A program made the translations under genes and the position numbers. From the NCBI GenBank assembly GCA_003990745.1, contig RBNI01000110.1:1-41960 (forward strand): a stretch of DNA of 41,960 nucleotides, written 5' to 3'. Origin of the DNA: Jimgerdemannia flammicorona (lineage: Eukaryota > Mucoromycota > Endogonomycetes > Endogonales > Endogonaceae). Every line of letters begins with the position of its first letter. Within the stretch, counting starts at the first letter, position 1. The notes under the pieces are model-generated. The model saw only the letters and a list, made by a program, of their open reading frames with translations, searched no databases and was not told the DNA's origin. Positions 2,255-40,775 of this stretch are shown here, one piece after another.

Positions 2255-2320
2255 AAAGACTCTCAGTATCTTTCACCAGTACTATTTGGGTGACACAAGA
2301 CTCAGACAATACTTTCGACA

Positions 2321-4231: not shown

Positions 4232-4268
4232 TAGATGTAGGGATATCGACACTCTCAAATAATTTGCT

Positions 4269-5100: not shown

Positions 5101-5105
5101 GAGGA

Positions 5106-7612: not shown

Positions 7613-7904
7613 GTGGCTGATGGTTGGTTGGGCTGTTGCAATATAGGTGAGGCTCGCAGAACACTGGCAGAGCATCTTTGAGGAGGGCCCTTGGAGGCCT
7701 GTGAGACTGAGAGTAGTGAGGTGGGAGGAGCTGATGCTCGAGCTCTTCAAGGCATGGTGGATTGGTTGGGGCCCCAAGGGGGGGAGATGTAAGGGACTAG
7801 TAAGGAGGATTGTAGAGAAGAGTGGGGGTAGAGTTGTGGTGAAGGTGGATGGGGTGTTATTGGTGGGAACTAGAGAGGGGGGGGGTCTCTGTGGGATAGG
7901 TTGA
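7613..7904 (+). pseudogene. LINE ORF2 C-terminal tail
   Basis: After a TGA at 7610-7612 the frame changes and 7647-7904 (frame 0) stays open for 85 codons, rich in Trp, Arg and Gly. It lies between the Cys/His region and the 3' UTR, so it is most likely the end of ORF2 displaced by a frameshift. I recognise no domain. Confidence 0.5.
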
Positions 7905-7988
7905 AGACATAGGCTGTATTAATATTACTATAGATGTCAGTTAATAAAGGGAGTCCAAGTGACTATAAAAAAAAAAAAAAAAAAAAAA
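7905..7988 (+). other. LINE 3' UTR with polyadenylation-like signal and poly(A) tail
   Basis: A short AT-rich 3' UTR contains TTAATAAAGG at about 7941-7950 (AATAAA-like) and ends in 22 uninterrupted A residues (7967-7988). The right target duplication overlaps the last two A residues. This is the expected 3' end of a LINE copied from polyadenylated RNA. Confidence 0.8.
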
Positions 7989-8005
7989 GATAATGTCTTT
8001 TGCCA
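7987..8005 (+). repeat. LINE target-site duplication, right copy
   Basis: Matches 2236-2254 at 18 of 19 positions; the first two bases are shared with the poly(A) tail. Gypsy-1 gag sequence resumes directly after it. Confidence 0.85.
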
Positions 8006-11022: not shown

Positions 11023-12315
11023 TATTATAGCCCAGCTCAATAGAGGCAAATTACAAGGTTGGGGGTTGTTGTAGTTTGGCTTAAGCCCACAGTTACTTTG
11101 TTAAAAGTAATAAAATATTCTTAGTGTTTAGCAGTATAATAGTTAAAACTAGATATCTGTGAGTGATTTTAGCAATTTTCTTATTGGGATAAGTTCTTAG
11201 ATATAGCAGTAATTATATATATAGCAGACTGGTAATTTAGTAGTTCTTCTTATGCAATTTCTACATGGCAATCTCTATATAGTATAGTGATCTCTATATA
11301 GCATAATGATCTCCAAAAGTATGCAATTTCTGCAGGACAATCTTATATAGCATGATAATCTCTATATAGCATAGTGGATTCCTTATGTATGATGATCTAG
11401 TAATTTGGTAGTTTTCTTATGTAGTTTTGGTGGACAACTTGGTTTGAGTGTAGATTCTTCTGAATTAGACTTACTGAAAATAATAACTCAGCAGTTTTTC
11501 TGGAGATATTGGGTAGTATAGATTCTTCTAAATCAGGCTTACTGAGAATTATACTGGTAGCAGATTCTTCTGAATCAGGCTCACTGGGAACAGATAGATA
11601 ACTCAGGTGTTGTGGATAACTCAGATAACTCAGATATCATATATTCTTGGCAAAGTTATATCAAAGACTGGCTTCATTTATATGGGGTTATATTATAGAC
11701 TGGCTCTACTATGAAGTTGTATCAAGAGACTGACTTGTGGTAAGGTTCCTTAAGAGATCTCTAGGAATGTGGATAACTTGGAATTGGTGGCTTATTTCTT
11801 AAGTAGAAGATTTCTCTTCAAAAGTCAGTAAAGTTCTTCCTTAAACTTTGGTGGCAAATCTTCAGGCTTATCTAACAAGTAAACCAAAAATGTAACAAAC
11901 TCTTCTTTGTATTAGAAAGTGGACTGGAGTGGAAAGGAGACTAATGCTCAATCTTTAGAGACTTTTTTGGTATTTGTATTTCAGACTAAGGTTTATTCAA
12001 TCTTATCTTTAGGGTATTTTATATATTATAGTTGCTATCTGATTGATATCTGAATAATTATAGATTTACCATTTCTGGTAATATTTGCATGTATCCATAG
12101 GACATAAGTGTATCCATAGTATATGAGTATGTCTGCAGAACATGAATATATCTACAGGACATGAGTATGTCTACTAGATATAGGTGTGTCTTTAGGATAT
12201 AAATAAACAACTCTGATTCAGCATTCTGGCTAATTATAAGTATGATGTGCATGAGTAACTATACTATGCTGAGAGTTCATGTCATCTGGCTATATTATAC
12301 TATTTGCTTGCCACA
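11023..12315 (-). repeat. Gypsy-2 3' LTR
   Basis: Read on the minus strand, the LTR starts with TGTGGC (12315) and ends near 11023, with about 1293 bp, matching the reverse complement of the gypsy-3 LTR (31890-33200) along its whole length. It contains six 19-bp tandem units (12091-12204). The boundary is confirmed by the gypsy-3 3' junction at 40764-40780, whose complement aligns to 12300-12330. The inner end (near 11023) is mutated and exact to only a few bases. Confidence 0.8.
12091..12204 (-). repeat. Six 19-bp tandem repeats in gypsy-2 LTR
   Basis: Units start at 12091, 12110, 12129, 12148, 12167 and 12186 and average about two thirds identity; for example GTATCCATAGGACATAAGT and ATATCTACAGGACATGAGT. 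The same place in the gypsy-3 LTRs has three copies of a related 19-bp unit, close to the TATA-like box. They may be promoter or RNA-structure elements of the LTR. Confidence 0.75.
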
Positions 12316-12870
12316 TCAGCCCTGAAGGATGGTCTGTCTCAGACTATTCTACAGTTATCATCCCAATAAGTATAAGCAGCTCCTGCATCTATACCTGTTC
12401 CATCATCTTCATTATCTGTACTATGATCACTCTATTCCAAAGACTCTTCTTCTTTCTTAGAAAATAGGATCTCAACTTAGTGAATGATACTGAGGTAGGT
12501 GGGTAGGGTCATTCTTTAGAGATCATTTAGGGAGAACTGGGCCTGGATTAGAGCTGAAGAGTTTTATTTATAAATTGTATATAATCTTTCTGCAGTAGTA
12601 GTATTCCTTCTGTTTAGGCCAGTGGTATTGTAGACATAGGTCAGGTCTGAGAGGGGAAGATTCTGCAATTGTTCTCCAATTGCAGAGTAGGTCTACAGCT
12701 GGTGGACCTGGAGTAGTCTCTTGGCCAGAGTGAGGTTTTCATGATGGACCTGGATTCTTTAGAGATATGTTCCATTGGGCTCTCAGAACTGTGACAGGGG
12801 AACTGGTAGAACTTGGAGAGAACTGAGAACAAGAGTCTGGAGGCAGTTGTCAATTCTCTGGTTCATAGTG
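12316..12870 (-). pseudogene. Gypsy-2 ORF3 (post-integrase ORF)
   Basis: On the minus strand this region translates to a protein closely similar to gypsy-3 ORF3 (40220-40735). Shared stretches include NCLQTL, LPVPL, HENL and RLLQVHQL, and the acidic end (EEESLE, DNEDDGTGIDA, YWDDN). Both copies even share a TGA after the QF dipeptide. Function is unknown; it sits where env lies in errantiviruses but I see no signal peptide or membrane segment. Several further stops are present. Confidence 0.6.
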
Positions 12871-13950
12871 GGGGAGATATATCTTAAGGCAGTTGATGTA
12901 TACTGGTGTCCTGAGAGTTCATTCATCTATGTTTCTTAAATAGATGCTGGTTCCTCTGATGTTGTGTACAAGGTAAGGTCCTTCTCATTTGGGCTCCAGT
13001 TTGGTGGTAAGTTTGTTTCAATCATACTTCTTCAAACTAGTACTTGATCTCCAATCTTGATCTCCTGATCTTTCTGCTTCTGGTCATAGTACTTCTTTTA
13101 TCTTTCTTGGGCTTTGATAATCTGAGCTTGAGCTTGATTATGTAACTGTTCTGCCTTCTTGAGGAGGTCTCTGAGATTCTCATAGTCAGTAGTTCTGGTT
13201 CTTTTAGCAAATATTATTTTGAATAACTTTTGTTTAGTAGAGATACAGCAGGGGTGTTCTAGATTTCCCATAAGATCTCAGATAAGCAGAGGTCCCAGTT
13301 GGTAGGATTGACTTGGGCAAGTTCTTTCTTGATGGTCTGGTTCATTCTTTCTGTCATGTCATTGGTCTAGGGGTGGTATGATATGATTCATTTGAGATAG
13401 ATCTTGTAAATTCAGACATAACTTGTAATTATATTATTGATGAATTCTGTACCTCAGTCAGAGATAAGTTCTTCTGGGGGTCCATATCTGAGTGTAAGTC
13501 TATGGAGATGGCTTACAATGGTTAAGACATCTGCAATTTCTATTGAAAAAGCCTCAGACCACTTAGTCAGATGTTCTATAAATATAAGATATACTTGTTT
13601 CTTCTTAGTATAACTGGTAGGGATCCAATTACATCTACTCCCTATCTCTAAAGGATGTTGTCTAGTGGTATGATTGGTTGTAGTGGTGCTTGATGGTTCT
13701 TCCTTCCTTGGTACTTCTGGCAGGTATCACATTTCTTGAGTATATTCTGGACTTGAGTTCTAAGGTTGGGCCAATATTGATATATTGTTCACAGCTTTTC
13801 TTCTATATTTACCTGTCCTTGGTGGGCTTTTTGATATTCTTTTCAGATGAGATCTTCTTGTGCCTTGATGGTCTGAGAAGCTTTCTTTATAGTATAGTTC
13901 CTTAGGACATCCTTCTTCTAGTTCATTAGAGCTGGCAGAAAAGTACATCA
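12871..13950 (-). pseudogene. int: Gypsy-2 integrase
   Basis: Minus-strand homologue of the gypsy-3 integrase. Landmarks are the N-terminal zinc-binding region (about 13690-13850), the first catalytic Asp segment (GVDVI-like, near 13635), the second Asp segment with TEF (near 13440-13470), and the GPY/F-type segment near 12960-12990. It inserts element cDNA into chromosomes. No chromodomain follows. The frame differs from that of the preceding RNase H, as in gypsy-3. Many stops. Confidence 0.75.
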
Positions 13951-14420
13951 ATATTGTTGTGAGCTTTCCCTACTTTATAGATAATGGTGATTTTGTAATC
14001 CTAAAGGATAAGGATCTAGTGGACTAGGATTTCAGTAGGTTTCTTATAGTTGAATAGCTATTTGAGGGCTGTATAGTCTATGATCAGAGTGAATTTTTTT
14101 CTGATAAGGTAATGCTTAAACAGAGTGACTGCTATTTGACTGCAAGATATTCCAGTTTGGTGCTGCCATAGTTTATCTGCTGCTGATTGATAGCTCAGCT
14201 TGCATAAGCTATCATATAATATTATTGGTCAGATCCTTCTTAGGCTAGAACTGCTCCTAGGCTATCTTGGAAGTATCTGTATATAAGATGAATGGCTTCT
14301 GTAGATTGGAGTACATAAGGACTGATGCTGTAGTCATGCAGTTCTTGAGTTCTTTGAAGACTTTCTCTTGCAATTCCATCTATTTGTAAGATACTCCTTT
14401 CTTGAGAAGGATTTGAATTG
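13951..14420 (-). pseudogene. rnh: Gypsy-2 RNase H
   Basis: Minus-strand RNase H with the ILYTDTSKD-type start of the domain near 14235-14285, matching ILYTDASKD in gypsy-3 (38791). The end reads NNIDVLFCQL then a stop, the counterpart of the conserved ADALSR-type terminus. It would degrade RNA in RNA/DNA hybrids during reverse transcription. Broken by stops. Confidence 0.75.
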
Positions 14421-15345
14421 GGGCAGTAATTTGGACAAAGTTCTTGATAAACCTTCTGTAGTAGGATAATAGTATCAGGAATAAGAGGGTTTCCTTTTGG
14501 GGTCTTGGGTATTGGCCAATTGTTGATCTTCTCAGTTTTCTTTGAGTCTATATAGATTCCTCTTTCAAAACTATAAATCCAAGGAATTCAAGTTTCTGTT
14601 TTTCAAAATAGTATTACTTAGTATTGAGTCTTAGGTAGTTCTTGCAGATGAGCTTGAAGAATTCTTCTAGATGATATAGGTATTCTCTGAAATTTGCTGA
14701 ATAGATGTTGGAATCATCTATGTATACAATCAGGCAGTAGTGGATTAGGGGGGCATAGACCAAATTCATCATTCTCTGGAAGATGAGAGGTGTATTGCAG
14801 AGTCCAAAGGGTATTCAGAGGTATTCAAACAGTTTTCCTAGAGTAAGAAAGGCTGTCTTTTGAATGTCTTTTGGATCTATGGGGACCTCATGAAATCCTG
14901 CAAAAAGGTCCATACTGCTGAAGTATCTGGTATCTTATAACTGGTCCAAGAGGTCATCAATTCTGAGCAAAGGATAGACATCCTTTTCAGTGACTGAATT
15001 GAGTTTCCTGTAATCTATGCAGAGTCTCCATCCTCCTTTCTTTGGTACAATAAGTATAGGACTGACCCAAGGGCTGGTTAAGGGTCAGATGACTCCATTG
15101 TCTAAGAGTTCTTGAATATGCTCCTTTTCAAATATCTTTAGGTGATGGGGTATTCTATAGGGTTTCTGTTGGATGGGTGTTATATTTTCTATATTTATAC
15201 TGTAGTGATATGATGGGTTATATGGTAGGTTGCCATAATTAGTAGTGAAGATATCTTGATATTTGTTGAGAAGCTCTACTAGTTGTTGCTGTTGCTGGGG
15301 TATCAATTCTTCTCCAATGTTGGTGGAAGACTTCACTATCTCCTA
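14421..15345 (-). pseudogene. rt: Gypsy-2 reverse transcriptase
   Basis: The N-terminal part is open (15085-15336: IGEELIPQQQQQLVELLNKY, IPHHLK, ELLDNGVI). The catalytic YIDDS box is encoded around 14715, and the PFGLCN region near 14800-14820. It is collinear with gypsy-3 RT. The RT frame is offset from the preceding linker frame in both copies. Stops of the TAG/TGA/TAA type interrupt it at least six times. Confidence 0.8.
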
Positions 15346-15700
15346 GATTGCAGAGGGGCCTTTCCTTTCTTCTGGGACCTTTTACCATTTCCTGATAAGT
15401 TTAGTTCATAAACTTCTTGATGAGTTCAGTTGAGAAAAGGCACTAGGTGTCCTATGATGGTTTCATTTGGCAAAATGATGGTTTCCCAACTTTGGTTGAT
15501 TGCTCATGAGTGTACTGGGTTCATCTCATCAGAGAATGTGTATCCTCCTATGTCCAGATTTAGGATATCTTCATTGGATTCAAAGAAGAGGTTTCTGGGG
15601 TCAGGTGGTAAAAATATTTCGAAGATGGTTTGCTCTCCAGGCTCCAGGATGAGATTCTTGTACAGTTTAACTGGTTGGCAGTATACTTGCTTGCTGGAGA
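15346..15700 (-). pseudogene. pol: Gypsy-2 pol linker between dUTPase and RT
   Basis: An open minus-strand frame (15504-15704) contains KNLILEPGEQTIFEIF, PPDPRNLFF and YTFSDEMNPVHS, closely matching gypsy-3 at 37415-37570. This beta-rich segment resembles the pre-RT linker of many gypsy Pol proteins. A 4-base insertion (CAAG repeat) relative to gypsy-3 lies near 15690. Confidence 0.7.
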
Positions 15701-16125
15701 ACATTCCTCTTGAGGTAATTCACTTGAAGGAGGTGTACTTTCTTCTTGGCTGAGCTTCTAAATCCTTTGGCTTGTCTTGTTCCTTCTGTTAGTTCAGAGA
15801 CTTCTTATAATTGTGGAGTCTTGACTTTTATAAAGACTCCTTGGACAATCTTCTGTCCACTCATAATTCAGTACTATTCTGTACTACTGTTGTATAGAAT
15901 GATCTTAATTTCGCCTGTATATCCTGAGTCAATGGTTTCTCCTTCTATAGTTATTCCTTGTCTGATGAGTCCAGATCTTGAGGTCAGTTGAATGTAAGTT
16001 CCTTGAGGTGGCCGCATAGCTAGTCCAGTTCTGATCATGAATGTTCTTCCAGGCTTAATGGATTCATTCTCCAGACTGTGAAGATTATATTCTATATCTT
16101 CTGGGTGAGCTTTGGTTGGGGGTTT
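15701..16125 (-). pseudogene. dut: Gypsy-2 dUTPase domain
   Basis: Minus-strand translation shows the five dUTPase motifs in order: EYNLHS (motif 1, about 16095), SRSGL (motif 2, about 15985), TIDSGYTGEIK with ILYNSS (motif 3, about 15935), the GQKI-type motif 4, and TRQAKGFRSS (motif 5, about 15760, first Gly of GFGS mutated to Arg). Motifs 1 to 3 are in one continuous frame here, whereas gypsy-3 has a frameshift between motifs 2 and 3. Trimeric dUTPases hydrolyse dUTP to dUMP and limit uracil incorporation during cDNA synthesis. Confidence 0.8.
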
Positions 16126-17300
16126 GGCCTTGGGATATAGCAGGACATACTGGACAACATTCTTGCTGAGTTCAGGCTGTCCTTAGACTGAAGCTTCACT
16201 AGCAGAGAGCCTCCAGACTCTGAGGTTGAGGTGTAGCCATTGGGCTCCTGTAGAGGGGTCTTAGAGATAGTTGATTCCTCTTCTTTCTATAGGGTCTAGG
16301 GCTTCCATGAAGTTGGTGGCATCTTCTGCCCATCCTTAGCAGGTTGTATATCTAATGAGAGCTAGAATGACTTCTCCTAAATTATAGATCTTAAGGGTCC
16401 TTCTTTCTGGCTTCTTTGTTTGGCTTTTTTAAATCTGACCTCTATTATCTCCTCTCTTCAAGGTGTGGATTGCAATATCATAACTGAGGTGGATCTTCTG
16501 GTGTCTGCAATCTCAGCAGTCTGGGTGTCTTCTATAGTTACAATATCCCATTACTTGAAAATGCTATTTCTGATTGTTGATCTCTTGTTGTCTTAGGAAT
16601 CTGTATCCATCTTAGTCATAAGTTGGGAGAAGAGTGGACAAGGAGTATACTTCTGTTTGGGTGAAGAGATCTTATCCTCTAAATCGACTTTATAACTTAG
16701 TAATAACTTCTTGGAAGATAGTTGACTATGTAACTATAGTCAGAGTTTCTGATCTTTGAGGTCTCTCTGATTGAGTAGATGGCACTGATAGCAGTAGTCT
16801 TGGGAAGAGTGGAAGACCATTTGGTATAGATATCTTCCTAGCCAAAAAGCCCTTTCTTGATGAGTTTCTTTCTTAGAAATAATGGGAATTATACTGGGTC
16901 CTTCCTCAATATTTCAGTGGTCATTGTTTTTGGATAGTGTCCAGTAATGGTCATCCCAGGAGATGAGTTCAGAGACCTCTTCTTCTTTGGGTACTTCTTG
17001 TTCAGAAACCTCCTGTTTAGGGGCTTTTTCTTCCTCAGATGATTCTTGATTACAAATTGCTTATATGTACTTCTACAGCTTTAGCTACAGGTGTCTCTGA
17101 GATATATCTGTATTTCTTCTTCTTTCTTCTGCACTCAGGGCAGGCTGTGCTAGGTGAATTCCTTGTCTCAATGATCTTAGAGGAGTGCTTGGAGCATTTG
17201 TATCTCTTGAGGCAGATAGGGCATCCTTTGATTTCTCCTACAATAGCTCCAATAGTAATGGAGATAGTGTTCTGGCCCACACATTGTCTTCTGGCCTGTC
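16126..17300 (-). pseudogene. pol: Gypsy-2 Cys/His-rich region between protease and dUTPase
   Basis: Three small Cys/His modules match gypsy-3: GCPICLKRYKC followed by TACPEC (17050-17280 frame), DYCYQCHL (about 16765-16800), and GYCNYRRHPDC with DCRHQKIH (about 16495-16550). Spacing of the Cys residues is preserved although flanking codons are mutated. They may bind zinc and nucleic acid. I know of no standard gypsy domain of this layout at this position. Confidence 0.6.
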
Positions 17301-17429
17301 ATCTATCAGATTAATTTATGGATTGAGTCTGGGATTAATTCCATCTTTGGATTCTTCTTCCTCTTCTATGGTAGATCCTTCACTATTGGTATATTCTTCC
17401 TAGATTGTGACCTTCTTCTTCTTCTTTGA

Positions 17430-17830
17430 TTGCTCATAGCTGGTCATCTTAACTCTGTACTTCTTGCCTTAGTAGTCAAACTTGAGTACTTGTTGACCAA
17501 TATCAACAACTGCATTCATTTCCTTCATCCAGTTAGTGACAAGGATTATGTCATAGGTGACAGTTTAGTGATGACAGTTTTTGGAATAGAGAATTGAATG
17601 TGTCTGGGAGAGATGGTGATATTTCATACTTCCCCAAGGGGTTGAGTTCAGGCTCCATCTGCTACTATGATGCTGAGATTGGATGGTCTATCAATGGACC
17701 ATTGAAGGGTATCTAGGAATTATTTAGCAATAACACAGATAGCTGCTTCTGTGTCCATGAGAATTTTCGCCTTTTGTCCTCTAATATCTCCATATAAGTA
17801 GGTGCTGACATGTCTCTCTGCAGCTTGGAT
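17430..17830 (-). pseudogene. pro: Gypsy-2 aspartic protease
   Basis: Minus-strand sequence around 17725-17765 encodes KILMDTEAAICVIAK, the counterpart of KILIDTGAAVCIIAK in gypsy-3; the DTG Gly is Glu here. Downstream the frame is collinear with gypsy-3 35330-35780. Inactive by loss of the catalytic loop Gly and by stops. Confidence 0.75.
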
Positions 17831-19154
17831 AGGTGTGGGAGCAGGTTCTTGCTGTGAAATGAGGACCCAGCCAGTTCTAGACCTAGTTGTCCTCAGCAAT
17901 TTGTTTTAAACTCCAGCTGGTATCAGTTGTAGGAACTACAGAAGAGGGACTTCTATCTTGACTTCTTGAATCTTCTACTAAACTTTATTGTAGATATCTC
18001 TGGACATAGTTTTCAGGGTGTACTTCTTCTTGGGCTTTGGGGTAGTAGATTCCTGTTCTTCTTGCTCTATTTCTTCATCTTCTAGTAATAGTTCATTTGT
18101 CTTGGAGGCAAAAGGTAAGAGAGTCTAGGGAGGTGTTTTCTACTTATTCTTCTTTATATTCTTCATCTTCTTCTTAGATAATTCTTCTGCTGATAGTCCT
18201 GGATGGCCTTCCAACAGGTCTCTTCCTTTTCTCTGCTACGTAGACTATTTTTCAGATGGTAACTTTGGTAGGGTATAAGTTTAGATCACTGTAGTCTTCA
18301 CTGTTGCTTGCTTCTTCAAAATTTTCGATAGGATGGGCTTCAGTCTTCTTGTACTGAGTATCATTCCTTCGATTTGATGATTCTGAGTCTCTTTGGTCAA
18401 TTTTTTTGTTATCACATTTAGTGGCATAGTATTCAAATTATCTATAGTAGAAGTATTGGACTTGGCCTCTATCTTAGACAGGATATCTTCTTTCCTCTTG
18501 CTGGTAGTTCCTGTTATCTCTTGGTGGATAACCTTGGCTCCTCTGAGGTGGGTATCCTCTGTTGTCTTGATAACTCTGATTTTCACATATGGTGAGTTTT
18601 TCAAGCTGTCCAATCAATCTGTCTAACTTGGAACTAAGGTCTTATATTTCTCTCCTGTCCTTCTTTCCTTCCTTGGCTAGTCTTCTTTCTTCAGATCTTT
18701 CTTATTCTTAAAGGAGTCCTTGTAGGGCTTTGACCAGGATATCTTCTTTATTATCCTTATTGTTATGATCACTCTAGGTAGTTCCTTGTCTAATATTAAA
18801 GAATCCTTGGGCTGTATCTATCTGCTCTTCAGACCTTCTGATGTCCAGGATGTAGACATACTGGGCAATGTTCAGGGGAATTCCATTCATAAAGGTCATT
18901 AGACCTATGATGTCTTGGTTGGTGGCATTAAACCCAGCTGTATATATTCTCTTTTAGATTCTTGTAAAGAAGGCTCTGGGTGATTCTCCAAGATTCATCT
19001 TCATCTCAATGATAGATTCTTGAGTATTGTGGCAGGTTTCATTTCCTGCATACTTTTCAATAAGTCAGTAGACCATGGCTACATATTTTAGCTCATAGGA
19101 TGCTGCTGCTTATATTTGTACTACCAGTTCTGAGTGTGGGTCATTTGTTATTAT
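17831..19154 (-). pseudogene. gag: Gypsy-2 gag, C-terminal part with AT-hook motif
   Basis: This contains the later capsid region, a decayed zinc knuckle (about 18415-18460; Cys and His codons changed to Tyr), an acidic stretch EEASNSEDYSDL in the same frame (about 18275-18310), and then KRKRPVGRPSR (about 18200-18235). GRP flanked by basic residues is the AT-hook core, a minor-groove binder of AT-rich DNA. In this copy the frame from the knuckle region to the acidic stretch is continuous, unlike gypsy-3, which has a local frameshift. The protein is cut on its N-terminal side by copia-1. Confidence 0.7.
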
Positions 19155-19300
19155 TGAAATATGTAGGTTACAACTCGATATATGGTGGTGCAGCCTTTCT
19201 TGACTACGTCATCATGTAAACATCACTAATTGCCACATGTAAAAGCATGTGAGGATTAGCAATAAACAGCACACTTCCCCTCCATTCCAAGTATTCCACA
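19155..19300 (+). repeat. Copia-1 5' LTR
   Basis: Starts TGAAATATGTAGG and ends GTATTCCACA. It aligns to 24759-24905 with roughly ten differences, several at CpG sites where this copy has TG or CA. AATAAA occurs within AGCAATAAACA near 19260. Confidence 0.9.
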
Positions 19301-19302
19301 AC

Positions 19303-19318
19303 ATAGGTTATGAGCCCC
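19303..19318 (+). promoter_or_regulatory. Copia-1 primer-binding site, tRNA-iMet anticodon-arm type
   Basis: GGTTATGAGCCC (19306-19317) is the exact complement of GGGCTCATAACC, the anticodon-arm sequence of eukaryotic initiator tRNA-Met. It lies a few bases after the LTR. Drosophila copia and yeast Ty5 use such a half-tRNA primer rather than the tRNA 3' end. Confidence 0.75.
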
Positions 19319-19369
19319 AGTTAGCAGCTATACACCCCTCTAACACATATGCTACACTACGCTATACAA

Positions 19370-20500
19370 TGGCTACTAGTTCAAGTAGTGCTAGCAGCAT
19401 GCCGCCAAGTTCTGGTAATACGAACACAAACACAGCCAGAACAGGTTTCGCTTCCATGATGATGAACATTCCGGTAGTGGTGCCAATGTCAATGGTAAAG
19501 AGGATGATTCCTGTCTTTGACGGTAAGGACTACACCATATGGGCGTACCATATGAAGAATCTCCTAGAAGAATGTGGTTTGGAGGACTACTGGAAGCCAC
19601 AGGTACAAGTAACGACATATGACGCTGCAAAAGATCACAAAGCACTAAGGGAGATTATGTTCACTCTTTCGAATGCACAAATGAAGCTGGTAATCAATGC
19701 TATGATGGCAAATGAAGCCTGGGAGATTTTACGCAATCACCATCAACAGGCATCCGCGTCAAACAGATTCCACTTAAAGGTGCAACTATTCAATCTTTGA
19801 ATTAAGTCCAAGGAGAGCATCTGGGACTATGTCAATCAAGTCAACGAGCTGGCGAATCAAGTGAATTCCCTTACATCTATGCTGGCAGACACCATCAAGG
19901 ATGAAGACAAGGTCCTGGCTCTTATACGAGGCCTTCCCGAAGCATACAACATGGTTGTCGCTGCTATGAGGGAGTCTGGCAAATTATCAGATTATAAGCA
20001 CGTCATCACAAGCCTTTTAAATGAGGAAACAAGGCTAGGCAGCAACAATGCCAATGAGGAATATAATGAGAAAGCATTCTACAGCGGAGCACATGGATGA
20101 GGCAAAGGCAAGCCGAACAAAGGTCGAGGCCAGCAACTCGAGAAATTCGATGGTAAATGCTTTTACTGTAATAAGCATGGATATCGTGAGCAGGACTGCA
20201 ACCGCAAGAAGAAGGAAAAGGGTGGCCAACAGCAAGGACAATGGCAGGCAAACACGGTGGATGCCAACAATGAAAACAGCGGTGGTGGAGGTCTATTCTT
20301 TGCAGAAGCAGCAACCTATCCATATGCAGAAACCATTGAAATAGGAGGAAATTCAGAACCAACCGCCAGTTCCACCAATGCCAGTTGCAGATGTAATTCC
20401 ACCAGTTCGACATCTACAAATCCTGGTCAACAAAACACTTTTCAGACAGCGAAAAATGGTGATGTCAATGTCGGCACCAGCGCAAATGTAAGCTATATGC
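19370..20500 (+). pseudogene. gag: Copia-1 Gag region with zinc knuckle
   Basis: The start at ATG 19370 fits family length; an in-frame ATG at 19249 lies inside the LTR and is less likely. The N-terminus is Ser-rich, then the copia Gag core follows: IPVFDGKDYTIWAYHMKNLL (19509), LVINAMMANEAWEIL (19690), KESIWDYVNQVNELANQV (19810) and IRGLPEAYNMVV (19926). A CCHC knuckle CFYCNKHGYREQDC lies at about 20160-20202. TGA stops occur at 19798 and 20098 where relatives commonly have Arg. Gag builds the virus-like particle and binds element RNA. Confidence 0.85.
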
Positions 20501-20602
20501 CGAACAGTACTTATATATACAGCGAAGAGGTCTGGCTCATGGATTCGGGTGCAATACAGCATATGATAGCTCACCGGGAGTGGTTCTCTACGTACAAGAA
20601 GT

Positions 20603-20619
20603 TCGAGCATCCCATACCT
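20603..20619 (+). repeat. 17-bp target duplication, left copy
   Basis: TCGAGCATCCCATACCT here is identical to 21288-21304 and belongs to the copia-1 protease gene. It brackets the minisatellite-tailed insertion. Confidence 0.9.
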
Positions 20620-21079
20620 GTTTTGCCTATCTTGCCCATGTTGCCTATCTTGTCTTGCCCGTATTGCCCATCTTGCCTACTTTGCCAGTCTTGCCCTGTT
20701 GTTTTGCCCATTTTGCCTGTCTTGCCCATGTTGCCCATCTTGCCATCTTGCCCATGTTGTCTATCTTGCCTGTTTTGCCAGTCTTGCCCATGTCATTTTG
20801 CCCATTTTGCCCATCTTGCCCATGTTGCCCATCTTGCCCATGTCGCCCGTCTTGCCATCTTGCCCATATTGCCCATCTTGCCCGTTTTGCCTATTTTGCC
20901 CATCTTGCCCATCTTGCCCGTCTTGCCCATCTTACCTGTGTCGTTTTGCTGGTTTTGCCCATCTTGCCCATGTTGCCTGTCTTGCCATCTTGCCCGTCTT
21001 GCCCGTCTCACCCATGTTGTCCATGTTACCCATGTTGCCCATGTTGCCCATCTTATCTGTGTCGTTTTGCCCATCTTGC
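20620..21079. repeat. Degenerate 9-bp minisatellite
   Basis: The plus-strand unit is TTGCCCATC, with variants TTGCCCATG, TTGCCTATC, TTGCCCGTC and an interspersed GTTTTGCC, about 50 units. Because 9 is divisible by 3, each frame gives a 3-residue periodic peptide (LPI, AHL or CPS types; minus strand GKM-type). Longer subrepeats begin with GTCGTTTTGC-like segments near 20700, 20790, 20940 and 21060, suggesting partial higher-order duplication. Confidence 0.9.
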
Positions 21080-21287
21080 CCCGAAATTCTTGAAATCCTT
21101 GTAACTTGCTGAAACTAGAAGCTATGGCTACACCGAAAAGACCAGATGGGACTCCTATACTTAAGAGATGAGGTACACCTGTCAGTGCTCCTTGGAGCCT
21201 ATATTTGTGGCCTCCAAAACTTGAGAAGCTCACCATCCTAGTGGCTTAGATGCGGAGCCAACTGTTTGGTCTGAGTGAAAGGTCCTG
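20620..21287 (-). mobile_element. SINE-like insertion with 9-bp minisatellite tail
   Basis: This 668-bp insertion has perfect 17-bp target duplications, as left by LINE-type reverse transcription. Read on the minus strand it starts with a unique 208-bp head (21287 to 21080, beginning CAGGACCTTTC) and ends in about 460 bp of tandem GATGGGCAA-like units. The order, a unique head and then a repeat tail, fits a non-autonomous retroposon on the minus strand. I find no convincing tRNA-type A and B boxes in the head, so Pol III transcription is not shown. A minus-strand frame (20793-21236) runs through head and repeats, but the repeat alone keeps frames open. Confidence 0.7.
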
Positions 21288-21304
21288 TCGAGCATCCCAT
21301 ACCT
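21288..21304 (+). repeat. 17-bp target duplication, right copy
   Basis: Identical to 20603-20619; copia-1 coding sequence continues directly. Confidence 0.9.
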
Positions 21305-21559
21305 ATCAAGCTAGGTGATAATAACATCATTTATGCTCAAGGGAAAGGCAACATAGGCATACATCTATATGGAAATGTTGATGAACCTTCAGGCACCTTC
21401 ATGGATGTACTATATGTTCAAGATATAGGCAAGAACCTCTTCTCGATAGGCTGGATGATGGCTCGCGGGGACAAAGGAGTAAATATACACCCGAATGGTG
21501 TAACGGTAATCAATCTGAAGAACAATAAAGAGTTAATGTATACATCGAAAAAGGGGAAT

Positions 21560-22660
21560 CTATATGCAATCAATGGCATGCTGAGTGGCGCTACATCTAC
21601 ATATTCTGCAACTATGACAGGAGAGGATTTCTGGTATATAATGCATGAACACTTAGGACATATCAGTAAAACGAGCCTGGAATGGATGATAAGGAGCAAG
21701 TTTATGTACAGTTTACCAGACTATATGCCACCGGATTTCTTTTACAATGGATGCACGGCAAATAAGGCTTCCCAGCAACCTTTTCAGGAATGAATGAAGT
21801 GAGCAGCCAGCATTCTCGATTTGATTCATACGGATATTTGTGGCCCCATGCGAACGGCATCACACTCTGGGAAGAAGTATTTTATTACATTCATTGATGA
21901 TTATACACACAAAGTCCACATATATTTCATTACAGGGAAAAATGAGGCATTCGACAAATTCCGGGAATTCAAGGCAGCTGTGGAGAATGAGACGGGATGT
22001 AGAATACGAACCCTACACTCAGATAACGGCAAAGAATACGTCAACAAAGGTTTCAGACACTTCTTGAAGAAGAATGGTATACAGCACTCTATGACAGCCC
22101 CTTATACACCTCAGCAAAATGGCGTGGTGGAACGATTCAATCGAATGGTAGTGGAAATGGCTAGAATGATGATGAATACGGCCAGCTTACCGAAGTCCTT
22201 TTGGGTGGAAGTGGTGAATATGGCAGCATATATTCGAAATCATTGTTTCTCTCGAGCTCTAAGCAAGGATCCTGGCAAGCAATCCAGGAATGACAGCAAT
22301 CTTACCCCTGAGGAATTATGGAATGGATCCAAGCCTGACATTTCACACTTACGCATATTCAGAAGCAAGGCATATGTTCTGGACAAAGGTGGCAACCGAG
22401 GCAAGTTCGAACCTAAGGCAGATAAGCATATATTCCTTGGATATGATGGAGCAGGATACAGACTTTGGAACCCGCAGAAATGACGTATGATCATTTTACG
22501 CGACATACAGTTCAAAGAGACTAAGCAGGAAATTTACATGGAAATTCCTATCTCAAATCCGATGGTGAATTCGACGGTACAGCCAGTGACATCTATGCCA
22601 ACTGCAAAGGCTAGCGGAACAACATCTACACCTGGAACGATACCGAAGACTACGTAAAAG
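21560..22660 (+). pseudogene. int: Copia-1 integrase
   Basis: The zinc-binding N-terminus is present as HEHLGHIS (21647) and NGCTANKA (about 21748), where the second Cys of the usual CxxC is Asn. The catalytic core reads LIHTDICGPM (21820), LHSDNGKEYV (22014) and PQQNGVVERFNR (22111), giving the D, D and E residues. The GKFEPKADKHIFLGYD segment (about 22400-22447) ends the core as in other copia elements. TGA stops at 21791, 21800 and 22481. Integrase inserts the cDNA into the genome. Confidence 0.9.
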
Positions 22661-23960
22661 ACATTCTTGGGACCTACGCCAGTGAAAACGCAACCCATTC
22701 AAATGGAAATGAAGTTGCAAGAACCAAGGATAACGGAAATTACAGATGAGGATGGCAAAGAGGATACCTTTCTGAAGGGTAAGAAGAAGCGCAAATCTGG
22801 GATGGATAACGAAGTCTAAGCAGATCTGGGAAATTACTGGAACTCACCCAAGTCATCTTGTCGCAAACAACATCACGTGAACTATGCCTGTGAATGTACT
22901 TACATAGCAACGACTGGTGAGCCAGCACACTACGACGAAGCCATTCACTCAAATGATAAGAAGGAGTGGAGAAGGGCTATGGATGAGGAGTACAGTTCGC
23001 TCATCGAAAACAACACTTGGGATCTAGTAAGCCTTCCAGCAGAGCAATAAGCTATAGGATTGAAGTGGGTCTACAAGATCAAGCATAAGGCTAATGGCAA
23101 TGTAGAATGGTATAAGGCTCAATTTGTAGCAAAGGGGTACTCGCAAGGCTACGGCATAGACTACGACAAGACATTTTCCCTGGTATTTAAGTTGACTTCA
23201 CTTAGAATACTTCTTGCAATCGGAGCCAAGTATGACTATGAGATATGTACATCAAATGGACGTTAAGACAGCCTTCCTAAATGGAGATGTAGATACCAAA
23301 CTATACGTTCTTCAACCACAAGGATATGAACTATACAACAACAATGGAAATGAGCTCGTATGTAAATTACGCAAAGGGCTCTATGGAATCAAGCAAGCGG
23401 CAAGGTTGTGGAATCGAAAGATCGATGGATATCTTTTAGACAACAGATTCAAGCGTTGTGAAGCCGATCTATGCATATACACCTGACATACATCCTCAGG
23501 AATGGTATACCTGGGAATTTGAGTTGACGATATTATTTTAGTCAGAATGGTAAGTGAAATCAATGATATAAAGGCTACACTATACCAGAAATTCAAAATG
23601 ACAGACTTAGGCGAAGTGTCCTATCTCCTTGGAATATTGATTACATATAATAGGCACGAGCGCGCTATACACCTAACACAAGCCACATACATTCGAAATA
23701 TTCTCGAGCGATTCGGGATGAGTGAATGCAAACCAGTCGGAACACCTATAGAAACATTCGTGAAACTAAAGAAGTCTGACACTATGCCTGAGGGAAACGA
23801 CATCCCCTATCAACAAGCCATGGGATCCCTCATATATCTTATGCAAGGGACAAGACCTAATATCTCTTTTGCGGTAAACAAAGTGGCGCAGTATTCTTCA
23901 TGCTACGACAATAGCCATTGGATGGCAATCAAGCAAATTTTCAGATACATCAAAGAAACT
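22661..23960 (+). pseudogene. rt: Copia-1 reverse transcriptase
   Basis: Motifs: EWRRAMDEEYSSL (22968), LKWVYKIKHKANG (23061), QGYGIDYDKTFSLV (23148), HQMDVKTAFLNGD (about 23248; block A Asp), LRKGLYGIKQAARLW (23370), VDDIILV (about 23524; catalytic DD) and FKMTDLGEVSYLLGI (23595). The reading frame changes from 2 to 0 near 23235 just before block A. Stops occur near 22656, 22816, 23048, 23484 and 23520. Copies element RNA to cDNA in the particle. Confidence 0.9.
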
Positions 23961-24497
23961 GCGGACTATATGCTCAGTTTGGGTGGTGATAATGGGCAAA
24001 GCAGGAGTACTATATGCCTACTCAGTTCTTGTGATGCCGATTGAGCTGGCGACTTAGATGACAGAAGGTCTACAACTGGATATATTTTTAAAGTAAACAA
24101 TGGAGCCATTTTGTGGCAAACACATAAGCAACCTTCAGTGGCAACATCCTCTATGCAAGCGGAATATCAAGCATTATCAATGACAACAAAGGAGGCTATC
24201 TGGCTTCGAGAACTGTTAAAGGAGCTGGGATACAAGCAATGGCACTCTATACTACTCCAGCAAGATAACCAATCAACGATTGCTTTAGCAAAGAACTCTA
24301 TACATCACGCCAGAATGAAACACATAGATATACAGCATTATTTCATATGTAAATGTGTGGAAAACGGCACTATACACCTTGAATACATCTCAACAGAATA
24401 TATGATGGTGGATTCATTGACTAAAGCCCTTCCAAAGGCAAAGTTTGACTTATGCATGCAAGGAATGGGTATTACGGGACTCTACACTGGTAATTAA
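23961..24497 (+). pseudogene. rnh: Copia-1 RNase H
   Basis: The Ty1/copia RNase H starts around SSCDADWAGD (the Trp codon is TGA at 24042), then RRSTTGYIF (24066), QPSVATSSMQAEYQALS (24129), QDNQSTIALAKN (24266), HIDIQHYFICKCVENGTIHL (24322) and DSLTKALPKAKF (24411). It ends with a stop at 24495-24497. Apart from the TGA at 24042 the domain is open from 23547. It removes RNA from RNA/DNA hybrids. Confidence 0.9.
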
Positions 24498-24758
24498 GGA
24501 CAATTCGGGATGAGATAGGATAATAGAGTAACAGCAAGCTTCTTTAACATTGATCCCTGCATTGGTGATTTCTACCAACATTGCTCATCTATGAATGTTC
24601 ACATCTCTATTTTTCAACCTATTTTTCGAGCTTTTAAGCAGGCAATTCAGGTGTTTTTCGGTTTCTAGATAGCAGTCTGAACATTACAGTGAGATTTGCA
24701 GTGGTTATAGCTTAGTATTGCAGTTTGGGAATTTGCATATCTCGTTGAGTGGGAATAT
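24498..24758 (+). other. Copia-1 3' untranslated region and polypurine tract
   Basis: Non-coding sequence between RNase H and the 3' LTR. GAGTGGGAATAT immediately before the LTR start is the likely polypurine tract priming plus-strand synthesis. Nothing else is recognisable. Confidence 0.6.
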
Positions 24759-24905
24759 TGAAATATGTAGGTTACAACTCGATATATGGTGGCACAGCCT
24801 TCCTTGACTACGTCATCATGTAAACGTCACTAATTGTGACGCGTAAAAGCGCGTGAGGATTAGCAATAAACAACACACTTCTCCCTCCATTCCAAGTATT
24901 CCACA
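24759..24905 (+). repeat. Copia-1 3' LTR
   Basis: 147 bp, TGAAATATG to TATTCCACA. It keeps CpG pairs (GTGACGCG, GCGCG) that are TG/CA in the 5' LTR. Followed by gypsy-2 gag sequence. Confidence 0.9.
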
Positions 24906-25642
24906 ATAGTTATTCAGTGGAAAATTCCTCTGACTAGTTCTCTGAGCTGAGCCTTGTAGATGGCAATTTTCCTTTCATCTGAGAGATTCCTCAGAGCTGT
25001 GATTCCCTCAATTCTGTCAAGGAATTCTCTAGGATCTTCCTCTGGGTATCCTGCAAAGGTTGACAATGAGGTGGCCATTTCATTGTCACTTTCTTCTGAT
25101 TCTGGTTCTGGTCCAGATTCTGATTTAGATTCTGACTCTGATTTACTTTCTGAAATATCACTAGAGATGGGAGTGCTTGGATATCTTGAGGATAGTGTTC
25201 TAGACCTTAGACAAAGTAGAATGAGCCTAGGTATTCTTGAAGAAGCTACTTCCAATTCTGCAATGGCTGGTGGTAAAGGTTTGATGGGTGAGACTGGTAG
25301 GACTTCTCTGGAGTATTTGGCTGCTAGATGCTAGACTTATATAATGAGATCTTCTAGTTCTTATGCAAGTTCCTCAAATTGTCCAACAGAACTACCTGTG
25401 TTGTCTAGTTGATCTGGTTGGAGATTTCAGACTATACTGGCTTCTGGTTGGGATCCTTCTGATGCTGTATAGTTGGTAAGTCTTGAGATAATTACTTCCC
25501 TTTCTTTCCAGATGCTAGTGATGACCAGTTCTCCTGTGGTGATAGAGATTGGTATTGTATCAAATGTATCCAGTTTGACTGTGAGTTCTTGTGAGCTGAA
25601 AAGTCACATTGATTTTAAAATCTTCTCAGTTGAGTTCCCAAA
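24906..25642 (-). pseudogene. gag: Gypsy-2 gag, N-terminal part
   Basis: The minus-strand frame 24914-25255 is open for 113 codons and closely matches gypsy-3 Gag: RYPSTPISSDI, a Ser/Glu/Lys-rich acidic linker, ESDNEMATSLSTFAGYPEED, PREFLDRIEGI and ERKIAIYKAQLRELVRGIF. The rest toward 25642 is broken. Copia-1 cuts it at 24906. In gypsy-3 the LTR end supplies an ATG in frame with Gag; here that codon is mutated. Confidence 0.8.
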
Positions 25643-26565
25643 TATAATGTGCCTGGCTCAATGAAGGCAAATTATAAGATTGGAGATTATTGTAGTTTGG
25701 CTTGAGCTCCCAGTTACTTTGTTAAAAGCAACAAAATATTCTTAGTATTTAGCAGTATAATAGTCAAAGCTAGATATCTGTAAACAATTCTGGCAATTTC
25801 CTTATTAGAATGGGTTCTTGGGAGTAGTGGCAATTATATATATAGTGGACTGGTAATTTAGCAGTTCTCCTTATATGATTTCTGCATGGCAATCTCTGTA
25901 TAGTATGATGATCTCTGTGTAGTATGATAATCTCCAAAAGTATGTGATTTCTACAGGACAATCTTGTATAGCATAATGATCTCTATGTAGTATGACAGAT
26001 TCCTTATGTATGATGATCTGGTAATTTGGCAGTTTCTTTATACAGTTTTGGCAGGCAACTTGGTTTGGGTGCAGATTCTTCTGAATTGGGCTTACTGGGA
26101 ATAGTTCTTCTAGAGATATTGGGTAGTATAGATTCTTCTAAATCAGGCTCACTGAGAATTGTACTGGTGGTAGATTCTTCTGAATTGAGCTTACTGGGAA
26201 CAGATGGATAACTTGGATATTATAGATAACTTAGATAACTTGGATAACTTGAATGTCATAGATTCTTAGTAAAGTTACATCAAAGACTAGCTTTGTTTAT
26301 ATGGGGTTATGTCATAGACTGGCTCTACTGTGAAGTTGTATCAAGAGACTAACTTGTGGCAAGGTTTCTTAAGGGATCTCTGAGAATGTAGGTAACTTGG
26401 AATTGGCAGCTTATTCCTTAAGCAACAGATTTCTCTTCAAAAGATAGCAAAGTTCTTACTTGAACTTTAGCAGCAAATCTTCAGACTTATCTGACAAGTA
26501 AACCAAAAATGTAACAAACTCTTCTTTGTATTGAAAAGTGGACCAGAGTAGAAAGAGGACCAATG
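25643..26565 (-). repeat. Gypsy-2 5' LTR, truncated
   Basis: About 923 bp matching 11023-11950, the U5-side part of the LTR. The remaining 370 bp, including the 19-bp repeats and TATA region, is missing; at 26565 the sequence changes abruptly to copia-2 integrase. The two gypsy-2 LTR parts agree well except for transitions. Confidence 0.8.
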
Positions 26566-31889: not shown

Positions 31890-32004
31890 TGTGACAAACC
31901 AGGACATACTAACTGAATTATACCTTAGCCAGATGACACAAACAATTAGCCAGATGATGTGAACACAGAGCATAGTAACCAGCAATCATTGCTGTAGAAA
32001 ACTG

Positions 32005-32012
32005 TATAAATA
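32005..32012 (+). promoter_or_regulatory. TATA-like box in gypsy-3 LTR
   Basis: TATAAATA lies 115 bases inside the LTR and is conserved in the 3' LTR near 40890. It is followed by the 19-bp repeats and, about 170 bases on, AATAAA (32179). A transcription start nearby is likely. Confidence 0.5.
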
Positions 32013-32038
32013 GCCAGACTACCAGATAAGGTATATCT

Positions 32039-32095
32039 GTGCAGGACCTGCACACCTGTGCTGGACCTGTACACTTGTGCTGGACCTGTACAACT
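32039..32095 (+). repeat. Three 19-bp tandem repeats in gypsy-3 5' LTR
   Basis: Units begin at 32039, 32058 and 32077: TGTGCAGGACCTGCACACC and two variants with CTGGACCTGTACAC. The first contains GTGCAGG-A-CCTGCAC, a perfect 7-bp inverted repeat around one base. Confidence 0.85.
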
Positions 32096-33192
32096 TGCTA
32101 TAGATAGCAAATCTATAGTTAGCCACATAGTAACCAGATAGCAACCAACTTGTATAAATTACCCCAGAGACAAGAGTGAATAAACCTCAGTCTGAAATTG
32201 AATCCAAAAGCAAAAGTAAAGTCTGCCTACCATACTTTGAGAGGAACTCTACAGCCACTGTTAGGAGATTGTGAGTATTGGTCCCCTTTTCCACTCTGGT
32301 CCACTTTCCAATACAAAGCTTGAAAAGTTTGCCACCAAGTTCAAGGAGAACTTTGCTGTCTTTTGAGTTATTTACCGCATTCCCAGAAGCCCACCTATTC
32401 TTGCCACAAGCCAGTCTCCTGATGCAACTTCACAGTAGAGCCAGTCTAATGACATAACTCTATGCAAACGAAGCTAGTCTTTGATGCAACTTGCCAAGAA
32501 TCCAAGTTATTTCCCAGAGAGCTGCCAATTTGGGAAGAATTCACATCATTTGCCATTTTTAAGTTATTCATATTCCCAGTTGAAGCTGCTGATTCAGAAG
32601 AATCCATACTACCCAAGTATTATTCCCAGAAGAGCCCAATTTGCAGCATCCGAGTTATCTGAATTATCTGTGATATCCAAGTTATCTGCCAAGTTATCCG
32701 TTGTTCCCAGTGAGCCCAAGTTATCAAGTCATCTGCCACCAGTACAATTCCCAGTTGATTTGAATAAGGAATCTGCTACACTACACAAAGATCGCCCACC
32801 ACCCAAGAAGGAGAACCATTAAATTGCTAGACCATCATACTCAGAGATCATCACACTACACAAAATTGTGGCATTCCCAGTTGACTCGAATAAGGAACTT
32901 GTCACACTACATACAAATTCCCAGTCGACCCAAATAAGGAACCTGTTCGTGCTAAACACAAATTGACCACCACCCAAGAAGGAAATCCATTCACACTCAA
33001 ATCACCACTACACCCAGAGAACTGTCCCAATAAGGAAATTGCTCACAGTATCGAGATCTTGACTATTATACTACTAAACACTAAGGACCTAAGTAATCTT
33101 AGAACATTTTGTTGCTTTTTGACAAAGTAACTGGGGGCTCAAGCTAAACTACATCAACCCCCAACCTTGTAATTTGCCTCCATTGAGCTGGC

Positions 33193-35291
33193 ATGTTACA
33201 TTTGGAGGCTCAACTGGGAAGATTTCAAAATCAACATAACTTTTCAGCTCATAAGAACCCACAGCCAAACTGGATACATTTGATCCAATACCAACCTCTG
33301 CTACTACAGGAGAATCAGTTATCACCAGCATCTGGACAGGAAGAGAAGTAATTACTTCAAAACTTGCCAATTACCCAGTATCAGAAGGATCCTAACCAGA
33401 ACCAGAAGGCAGTACAGCCCGAAATCCCCAACCAGATCAACCAGACAATACATGCTAGAGATTTTGGAGAACTTGTACAAGAACTAGAAGATCTTATCAC
33501 ACAAACCCAATACTTTACAGCCAGACACCCCACACCAGTCCCATCAATCTCACCAATAAAACCCCTACTACAACCCCTTGCAGAACTAGAAGTAGCTCCT
33601 ACAAGAATACCTAGGCCTATTCCACTCTGTCCAAAGACCAGAACACCATCCTCAAGCTACCCAAGCACCCCCATCTCTAGTGACAGTTTAGAAAGTGAAT
33701 CAGAATCAGAATCCAAACTTGAACCAAAATCAGAAGAAAGTGACAACAAAATGGCCACCTCATTGCCAACCTTTGCATGATATCCAGAGGAAGACCCCAG
33801 AGAATTCCTTGATGGAATTGAAGGAATTGCAGTCTTGAAGAATCTCTCAGATAAAAGAAAAATTGCCATCTACAAAGCTCAGCTCAGAGAACCAGCCAGA
33901 GGAATTTTCCATCAAATAGTAAACAACTGAGATTCAGAACTAGCAAGACAGATACAAGTAGCAATATCTGATGAGCTAGAATATGAGGCCATGGTCCACT
34001 GGCTCATTGAAAAGTATACAGGAAATGAAACCTGCCACAAGGCTCAGGAATCCATCATGGGGATGAAGATGAATCTTAGAGAATCACCCAGAGCCTTCTT
34101 CACAAGAATCCAGAAGAAAATGCATTCTGCTGGGTTCAATGCCACCAACCAGGACATCATAGGTCCAATGACCTTCATGAATGGAATTCCCCCAAATATT
34201 ACTCAGTATGTCCGCACTCTAGGCATCAGAAGGTCTGAAGAGCAAGTAGATGTAGCCCAAGGATTCTTTGATATCAGAAAAGGAACTACCTGGAGTGATT
34301 ATGACAAGAAGGAAGATAAAGAAGATATCCTGGTCAAAACCCTGCAAGGACTCCTTCAAGGACAAGAAAGATCTGAGGAAAGAAGGCCAGCCAAGGAAGG
34401 AAAGAAGGACAGAAGTGAAATCCAAGACCTCAGCTCCAAGTTGGACTGACTGGTTGGAAAGATTGAAAAACTCACCACATGTGAAAATCGGAGCTACCAG
34501 GATAACAGAGGATACCCATCACAGAGGAGCCAAGGTTATCCACTAAGAGATAACAGGAGTTACCAGCAAGAAGAAAGAAGATACCCTGTCCGAGACAGAG
34601 CCCAAGTCCAATGCTTCTATTGTGGATAATTCGGACACTATGCCACTGAATGTGACAACAAAAGAAGTGACCAAAGGGACTCAGAACCACCAAACCAAAG
34701 GAATGATACTCAGTACAAGAAGACTGAAGCCCATCCTGTGAAGATTTCGAGGAAGCAAGCAACAGTGAAGACTACAGTGACCTAGACTTATACCCTACCA
34801 AAGTTACCACTCAAAAAACAGTCTACCCAGCAGAGAAAAGGAAGAGACCTGTAGGAAGGCCATCCAGAAATATCAGCAGAAGAATGATCCAGAAAGAAGA
34901 CGAAGAGCATGAGGAGGAACAAGTAGAAACACCTCCCCGAACCCCCTCACCTTTTGTTCCCGAGACAAATGAGTTGCCACCAGAAGATGAAGAAATGGAA
35001 CAAGAAGAACAGGAACCTGCTGCTCCAAAGCCTAAGAAGAAGTACACTATGAAGACCATGTCTAGAGACATTTACAATGAAGCCTGGCAGAAGATTCAAG
35101 AAGCCATGATAGAAGTCCCTCTCCTGCAGTTCCTGTAACTGATACCAGCTGGAGTCTAAAACAAATTGCTGAGAACCACCAGGTCTAGCACTGGCCGAGT
35201 TCCAATCTCACAGCAAGAACAAGCTCCCATCCAAGCAGCTGAAGACATGTTAGCACCTACCTATATGGAGATATTGGAGGACAAAAAGTAA
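33193..35291 (+). pseudogene. gag: Gypsy-3 Gag with zinc knuckle and AT-hook
   Basis: Frame 1 is coding-like from ATG 33193 (inside the last 8 bp of the LTR) through the PBS. An ATG at 33364 after a TAA is the alternative start. Order: Pro/Gln-rich N-terminus, Ser/Glu-rich linker (33680-33750), capsid region (YPEEDPREFL, IAIYKAQLRE, YEAMVHWLIEKYTGNE, SPRAFFTRIQKKM, FMNGIPPNITQYV), then a zinc knuckle CFYCxxFGHYATEC (34612-34653, one codon now TAA). One lost base near 34737 moves the rest to frame 0: EEASNSEDYSDLDLYP, AT-hook KRKRPVGRPSR (34836-34868), and a long acidic/Pro-rich segment with KPKKK. Frame 0 ends at TAA 35289, overlapping Pol. Confidence 0.85.
33201..33218 (+). promoter_or_regulatory. 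Gypsy-3 primer-binding site candidate
   Basis: TTTGGAGGCTCAACTGGG directly follows the LTR. TGG starting at 33203 would pair with a tRNA CCA end, and the sequence resembles the tRNA-Pro type of primer site of some retroviruses. The fit to a fungal tRNA cannot be tested here. Confidence 0.5.
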
Positions 35292-35782
35292 AAATCCTCA
35301 TAGACACAGGAGCAGCTGTCTGTATTATTGCCAAATGATTCCTGGATACCCTTCAGTGGCCCATTGATGGACCATCCAACCTCAGCATTATAGTAGCAGA
35401 TGGAGCCTGAACTCAACCCCTTGGAGAAGTACGAAATATCACTATTTCCCTGGGACACATTCAGTTCTCCATTCCCAAAGCTGTTGTCACAGAAGCTGTC
35501 ACCTATGATATGATTCTTGGCACCAACTGGATGAAGGAAATGAATGCAGTTGTTGATATCAGCCAACAAGTACTCAAGTTTGACTATCGAGGCAAGAAGT
35601 ACAGAGTTAAGATGACCAACTATGAGAAATCAAAGAAGAAGAAGAATGTCACTATTCAGAAAGAGTATACCAGCAGTGAAGAATCTACTACAGAAGAAGA
35701 GGAAGAATCTGAAGATGGAAATGATCCCAGACTCAATCCCCGAATTAACCTGGTGGATGACAGACAAGAAGACAATGTGTGA
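35250..35782 (+). pseudogene. pro: Gypsy-3 aspartic protease
   Basis: Frame 2 reads GDIGGQKVKILIDTGAAVCI (35270-35329) with the catalytic DTG, then WPIDGPSNLSIIVADGA, ITISLGHIQFSIPKAVV and DMILGTNWMKEMNAVVDI (35511), the conserved ILG motif. A Lys/Glu/Ser-rich linker follows up to TGA 35780. Stops occur at 35336 and 35408. It processes Gag-Pol. The frame is -1 relative to the end of Gag, with overlap. Confidence 0.85.
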
Positions 35783-36950: not shown

Positions 36951-36959
36951 AGGCCAAAC

Positions 36960-37709: not shown

Positions 37710-37729
37710 AAGAAAGGAAAGATCCCTCT

Positions 37730-40735: not shown

Positions 40736-40763
40736 AGGATAGTCTGAGGAGAGAGCATCCTTT

Positions 40764-40775
40764 AGTGGGGGCTGA
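40764..40775 (+). promoter_or_regulatory. Gypsy-3 polypurine tract
   Basis: AGTGGGGGCTGA directly precedes the 3' LTR start (TGTGAC, 40776). A G-rich purine run at this place primes plus-strand DNA in LTR retroelements. In gypsy-2 the run is mutated. Confidence 0.7.

Follow-up and report, generated by a model that had tools for sequence, protein, structure and literature searches.

A repeat family with a central VNTR and marks of retroposition in the fungus Jimgerdemannia flammicorona

The inserted element and its target site

The window (the whole stretch that was analysed, 41,960 nt of contig RBNI01000110.1) carries nested LTR elements at positions 11035-26565 and 31890-41960. Among them is a copia element on the plus strand (19152-24906) with gag and integrase matches; its end repeats (19152-19301 and 24756-24906) were 92% alike in a self-comparison and were taken as terminal repeats. 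The copia element interrupts another repeat, whose own end repeats are 83% alike. Among these nested elements, the stretches 12308-19133 and 40783-33934 show a likeness of 82% in inverse orientation, and 24918-25830 and 33911-33005 one of 78%; the first of the nested elements is split by the copia element.

Inside the copia element lies an insertion on the minus strand (20620-21287, 668 nt), hereafter W. As shown by the coordinates, W fits exactly between two identical 17-bp direct repeats set 685 bases apart, the target-site duplication at its 3' end (20603-20619) and that at its 5' end (21288-21304). Its 5' domain, the head, occupies 21082-21287 (206 nt), starts GACCTTTCACTYGGACC after a few extra bases and has copies elsewhere in the genome; in the family at large the head is ~205 nt long. 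The remainder (20620-21081) is a VNTR of 9-bp units that ends ...GGCAAAAC at the target. These repeats extend over ~460 nt in W, and TRF reported period 9 at 20623-21054 with 50.2 copies and 72% matches. An earlier note on this DNA had described a unique head followed by about 460 nt of minisatellite on the minus strand between perfect 17-bp duplications, and both descriptions were confirmed. It had also claimed that removal of the insertion restores the copia reading frame. When the empty site was rebuilt from the flanks and one duplicate, a single frame was free of stops over 205 codons; the occupied stretch (20301-21600) has stops in all three frames, so this claim holds as well. From this nesting (end repeats 92% alike in the copia element, 83% in the repeat that it splits), W would be the youngest of three insertion layers.

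Copies, anatomy and insertion marks of the family

The genome assembly (134.8 Mb, 7754 contigs) was searched for the parts of the element. Its EF-1alpha, assembled from the exons, agrees with that of Jimgerdemannia flammicorona at 98% identity over 100% of the query; the other named fungi among the 120 hits listed of 7999 reach 91% at most. This single gene places the genome with Jimgerdemannia, a genus of Endogonales (Mucoromycota). Among solved structures, an RPB2 exon had its best match in yeast RPB2. The head gave 40 scored matches among 90 candidates, with identities of 92-100%, and is thus a genomic repeat rather than a sequence found once. The 5' end of the head, searched as a 28-mer with up to 3 mismatches, was found at 44 places, with none for the reversed-pattern control. 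For the 3' segment, 40 matches were scored among 203 candidates, and a pattern search with up to 3 mismatches detected 53 3' ends (reversed control, 0). Of the 44 heads, 22 had a similarly oriented 3' end 1083-1900 nt away, and none had one in the opposite orientation; some of the remaining heads reach a contig end. The full form consists of the ~205-nt head, the 9-bp VNTR and a unique 3' segment of 275 nt, followed by poly(A), ~1.1-1.9 kb in all. The 3' segment contains AATAAA ~20 nt upstream of the poly(A) and terminates with AGTTAATAAATGGGGCTCCGGCCTATAGAGG. Because of this position of AATAAA, the full element would be transcribed, from a putative promoter, as a polyadenylated RNA. W stops in the middle of the VNTR and lacks the remaining units as well as the 3' segment and poly(A). 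Coding capacity was examined in 11 copies over 1.9 kb from the head; the longest ATG frames on the sense strand were 100-191 aa, and their starts differed.

Two side observations concern the surroundings of the copies. Six contigs (C439, C2226, C3266, C3210, C3332, and C7660) start within 10 bases of an element 3' end, which suggests that the assembly breaks at the poly(A). Two copies, L031 past its VNTR and L056 past its 3' segment, pass into a similar sequence starting AGGACTTCTTTTGCT, which may be where another mobile element ends.

The class of the head was examined with two programs. ARAGORN (bacterial code) found no tRNA genes in the window or in any of the 8 loci given. An Rfam scan of both strands of the window stretch and of L053 gave nothing near the cut-offs: the best matches scored 15.6 bits against a cut-off of 35 (a hit lying outside the element) and 19.1 bits against a cut-off of 40. 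A tRNA-derived head or one derived from a known RNA was rejected on these blank scans, which found no head of the RNA polymerase III type (tRNA-, 5S- or 7SL-derived). The earlier proposal of a SINE-like family is not supported in the strict sense, with no tRNA, 5S or SRP-like head detected by ARAGORN or Rfam.

For the insertion marks, 51 copies were tabulated; they were picked by score or by flanks and are a non-random sample. At least 25 nt of flank was present on both sides of 36 copies. An exact duplication of 12-17 bp was found in 26 of these 36, 24 by script and two on inspection: L046 (15 bp), whose tail contains a G that misled the script, and L035 (12 bp), where the copy ends beyond a LINE-related piece. 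By contrast, the longest match in the mismatched-flank control (1260 comparisons) was 10 bp. In several copies the duplication and the head are separated by a few to about ten additional bases. The target sites of 14 duplicated copies open with A (9), G (9), and G (9), with T directly before (8).

The main poly(A) site is the end of 18 of the 26 duplicated copies, some of which begin within the head or the VNTR. Copies truncated at the 5' end with both poly(A) and duplications start from nt 105 of the head (L054), from its nt 17 (L103) or in the last VNTR units (L055). In two of the 26 (L026 and L076), poly(A) follows nt 205 of the 3' segment, a common earlier position that points to either alternative polyadenylation or a sub-lineage. 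One copy (L040) extends only to nt 92 of the 3' segment and has a short A run there, one (L035) is a chimera, and four (W, L042, L043, and L044) end inside the VNTR. Duplications of 12 bp or more were missing in 10 of the 36 copies. In C188 the duplication was 9 bp on inspection and 6 by script; the other nine (L031, L045, L047, L048, L049, L024, L025, L028, and L051) have none, and four of these (L045, L047, L048, and L051) nevertheless carry poly(A). Some of the duplication-free copies may have been cut by other insertions.

Target duplications of variable length, poly(A) and 5' truncation are thus all present, as in target-primed reverse transcription. The earlier note had pointed to such retroposition by a minisatellite-bearing repeat family with long target duplications, and the 26 of 36 copies bear this out. 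These same marks argue against a DNA transposon or Helitron that carries a minisatellite inside. Internal tandem repeats are known in such elements, but the poly(A) ends, the variable 12-17 bp duplications and the 5' truncations speak against this explanation; two inverted pairs were found, neither of them at the element ends, and we regard it as scarcely credible.

What did not survive is the minisatellite as the element's own end in place of poly(A). The earlier note had asked whether all copies end in the repeat and have long duplications: the duplications were found in 26 of 36 copies and were absent in 10, and a minisatellite end was found in only 4 of 26. A SINE-like family that normally ends in a minisatellite and is mobilised by a LINE sharing that tail would account for these four copies, in which the VNTR end lies 0 to a few bases from the duplication. 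However, 18 of the 26 duplicated copies run past the VNTR into the conserved 275-nt segment and poly(A), and as a rule for the family the minisatellite end is refuted by the full-length copies. A LINE with such a tail, which the earlier note had proposed to look for, was not found: neither the window LINE nor any other non-element poly(A) end in the comparison finishes in this minisatellite. Given the blank tRNA and Rfam scans as well, this explanation is very improbable. The earlier interpretation was half right, and the finding itself is real.

Inheritance and truncation of the VNTR

The unit order of the VNTR was compared between copies with unit shuffles as the control. The order in W exceeded all 20 shuffles against 16 of 27 copies. 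The 11 that failed were L034 and ten others. When L034 was used as the reference, all 11 comparisons (the ten others and L042) exceeded all shuffles, indicating a second VNTR type, in which about the first 148 nt seem to be missing according to one alignment (L035 with L034). On these comparisons, the unit order is inherited. The CpG position within the unit was read as CG 522 times, TG 1210, CA 420, and TA 96. A comparison of 29 heads with their majority sequence gave 171 transitions and 16 transversions. The slot counts and the excess of transitions point to decay of methylated CpG. Such decay would make the family look older than its actual age when judged from the mean pairwise identity of the heads, 95%.

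The 17-bp duplication of W directly abuts the VNTR end, and the truncation therefore most likely arose during insertion. One alternative is that W was inserted at full length and lost its 3' part by a later deletion. The existence of two VNTR length types and the tendency of VNTRs to deletion are in keeping with it. The deletion, however, would have had to stop exactly at the duplication abutting the VNTR end, and L042 and L043 show the same abutment, which makes a later deletion quite unlikely.

The VNTR ends were then compared with related copies. In W, the VNTR ends ...GGCAAAAC and the target starts with AGG; related full copies continue with AGG in one of five cases and with GGG in four of five. 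The target continuation of L043 (TGGG) is matched by one of five related copies, and that of L042 (GA) by all five. The VNTR end of L044 could not be placed; a run of ~11 G before its duplication is neither poly(A) nor VNTR and is unexplained. Pairing at the VNTR ends would thus involve 2-4 bases, in three of the four copies. For a truncation during insertion, internal priming through short pairing between the target and the repeat RNA is probably the best reading, and a shortened RNA is possible. With internal priming, the nicked target (AGG at the site of W) would pair over a few bases with the repeat RNA, so that reverse transcription would begin within the VNTR rather than at the poly(A), and W would lack the distal VNTR together with the 3' segment and poly(A).

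A resident LINE as candidate driver and comparison with known retroposons

A non-LTR LINE at 2255-7988 on the plus strand of the window represents the candidate driver family. It has 22 A at its end and broken frames, and its start was set by its target duplication, of which the first copy lies at 2238-2254 and the second at 7989-8005 (17 bp with one mismatch and a 12-bp exact core); this window copy, with its one mismatch, is the single copy from which the LINE duplication length is known. Two RVT_1 matches (E 5.8e-5 and 0.0088) were both below the Pfam gathering score. The LINE family end, AATAAAGGGAGTCCAAGTGACTAT followed by poly(A), was matched 328 times when up to 2 mismatches were allowed (control, 0).

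The first base after the poly(A) was G in 16 of 20 LINE ends (p 6e-5) and in 14 of 21 element ends (p 0.004), relative to a background of 0.356 for G among non-A bases, since A itself is invisible at this position. The 20 LINE ends were taken in list order without the window copy and C183, and two of them run into A-rich simple sequence; the 21 element ends include 4 from copies without a duplication. A 3' end common to the element and the LINE was not found; the comparison of their ends revealed no common sequence beyond a loose AATAAA layout.

The similar layout of AATAAA and poly(A) and the similar base after the poly(A) would also be compatible with a deletion derivative of a LINE, in which the head and the 3' segment would originate from the untranslated ends of the LINE. 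Against this, the only matches to either part were element copies when the window and L001-L050 were searched with blastn (word 7, E 0.01), and such an origin of the parts seems unlikely.

One duplicated copy, L035, links the element to LINE-related sequence, and it is a single case. After 9 unexplained bases, its head and VNTR are followed by 304 nt of LINE-related sequence and A23, all inside one 12-bp duplication. Within this piece, nt 167-300 resemble window 4669-4802 (72% alike) and nt 1-298 resemble L059 (68%), which in turn is 64% alike to window 4463-5025. These likenesses (64-72%) indicate that the piece derives from a relation of the window LINE, which may lie outside the abundant family. 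The joint lies at GGGCAAG, a 7-nt VNTR word that the LINE-related L059 has at the same position. A search for the junction pattern with up to 3 mismatches gave two matches, L035 itself and C3656 (L059). The latter was rejected as a parental copy of the chimera, as it is LINE-related sequence with GGGCAAG, and template switching is therefore favoured. A switch from LINE RNA to element RNA is a simple explanation of the joint; a 3' transduction from a lost parent is also possible.

The base preference after the poly(A), the long duplication and the one LINE chimera suggest that the resident LINE is likely to drive the family. Its machinery would copy the element RNA into new sites by target-primed reverse transcription, in line with the duplications, the poly(A), the 5' truncations and these points. 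We therefore consider it quite probable that W is a 3'-truncated copy, primed inside the VNTR, of a young non-autonomous VNTR-composite retroposon family copied by the LINE. The window LINE and the element share a poly(A) end, a long target duplication and a preference for G after the poly(A). They differ in that the LINE has reverse transcriptase coding remnants and other ends, and matches neither the head nor the 3' segment.

SVA has a poly(A) and a CpG-dense VNTR. The VNTR composites SVA and LAVA are described as specific to hominoid primates and as non-autonomous, with a 5' domain, a central VNTR with non-random unit order, a unique 3' domain and target duplications (PMC4432496), and LINE-1 is reported to move both in trans (PMC7353768). 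The fungal family resembles them, as compared by layout only, in the order of its parts, in being non-autonomous and in having target duplications: a central VNTR lies between unique 5' and 3' domains, and target duplications (26 of 36) and the main poly(A) (18 of 26) are present. The unit, however, is 9 bp rather than the 30-50 bp of SVA and LAVA; the head has no Alu- or SRP-like match in the Rfam scans, unlike their Alu-like 5' region; and the family comprises at least 44 heads and at least 53 3' ends in one fungal assembly, whereas SVA and LAVA are hominoid. Since the unit length and the head differ and the likeness is one of layout and working, the family is not classed as a member of SVA/LAVA; by its layout it looks like an independent counterpart. 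The SINEs of Aspergillus fumigatus include tRNA- and 5S-related families (PMC5063351). Both they and the present family are non-autonomous retroposons with target duplications, but the latter lacks such a head, is 1.1-1.9 kb long and has a VNTR core. Among the top-ranked open-access literature, no fungal VNTR composite was found. The point of most interest, which the earlier note could not have seen, is a VNTR-composite retroposon outside primates.

On balance, we lean toward an independent origin of VNTR composites in an early-diverging fungus, with the fixed-order VNTR serving a LINE reverse transcriptase as a zone of internal priming and template switching, and retroposition spreading a CpG-rich minisatellite. 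If so, the layout of SVA is no primate accident and can be favoured repeatedly by LINE machinery, and the fungal family would provide an independent second case for the role of the VNTR in mobilisation. Retroposition could likewise seed minisatellites at new sites via copies that end in the VNTR, as such copies resemble plain minisatellites.
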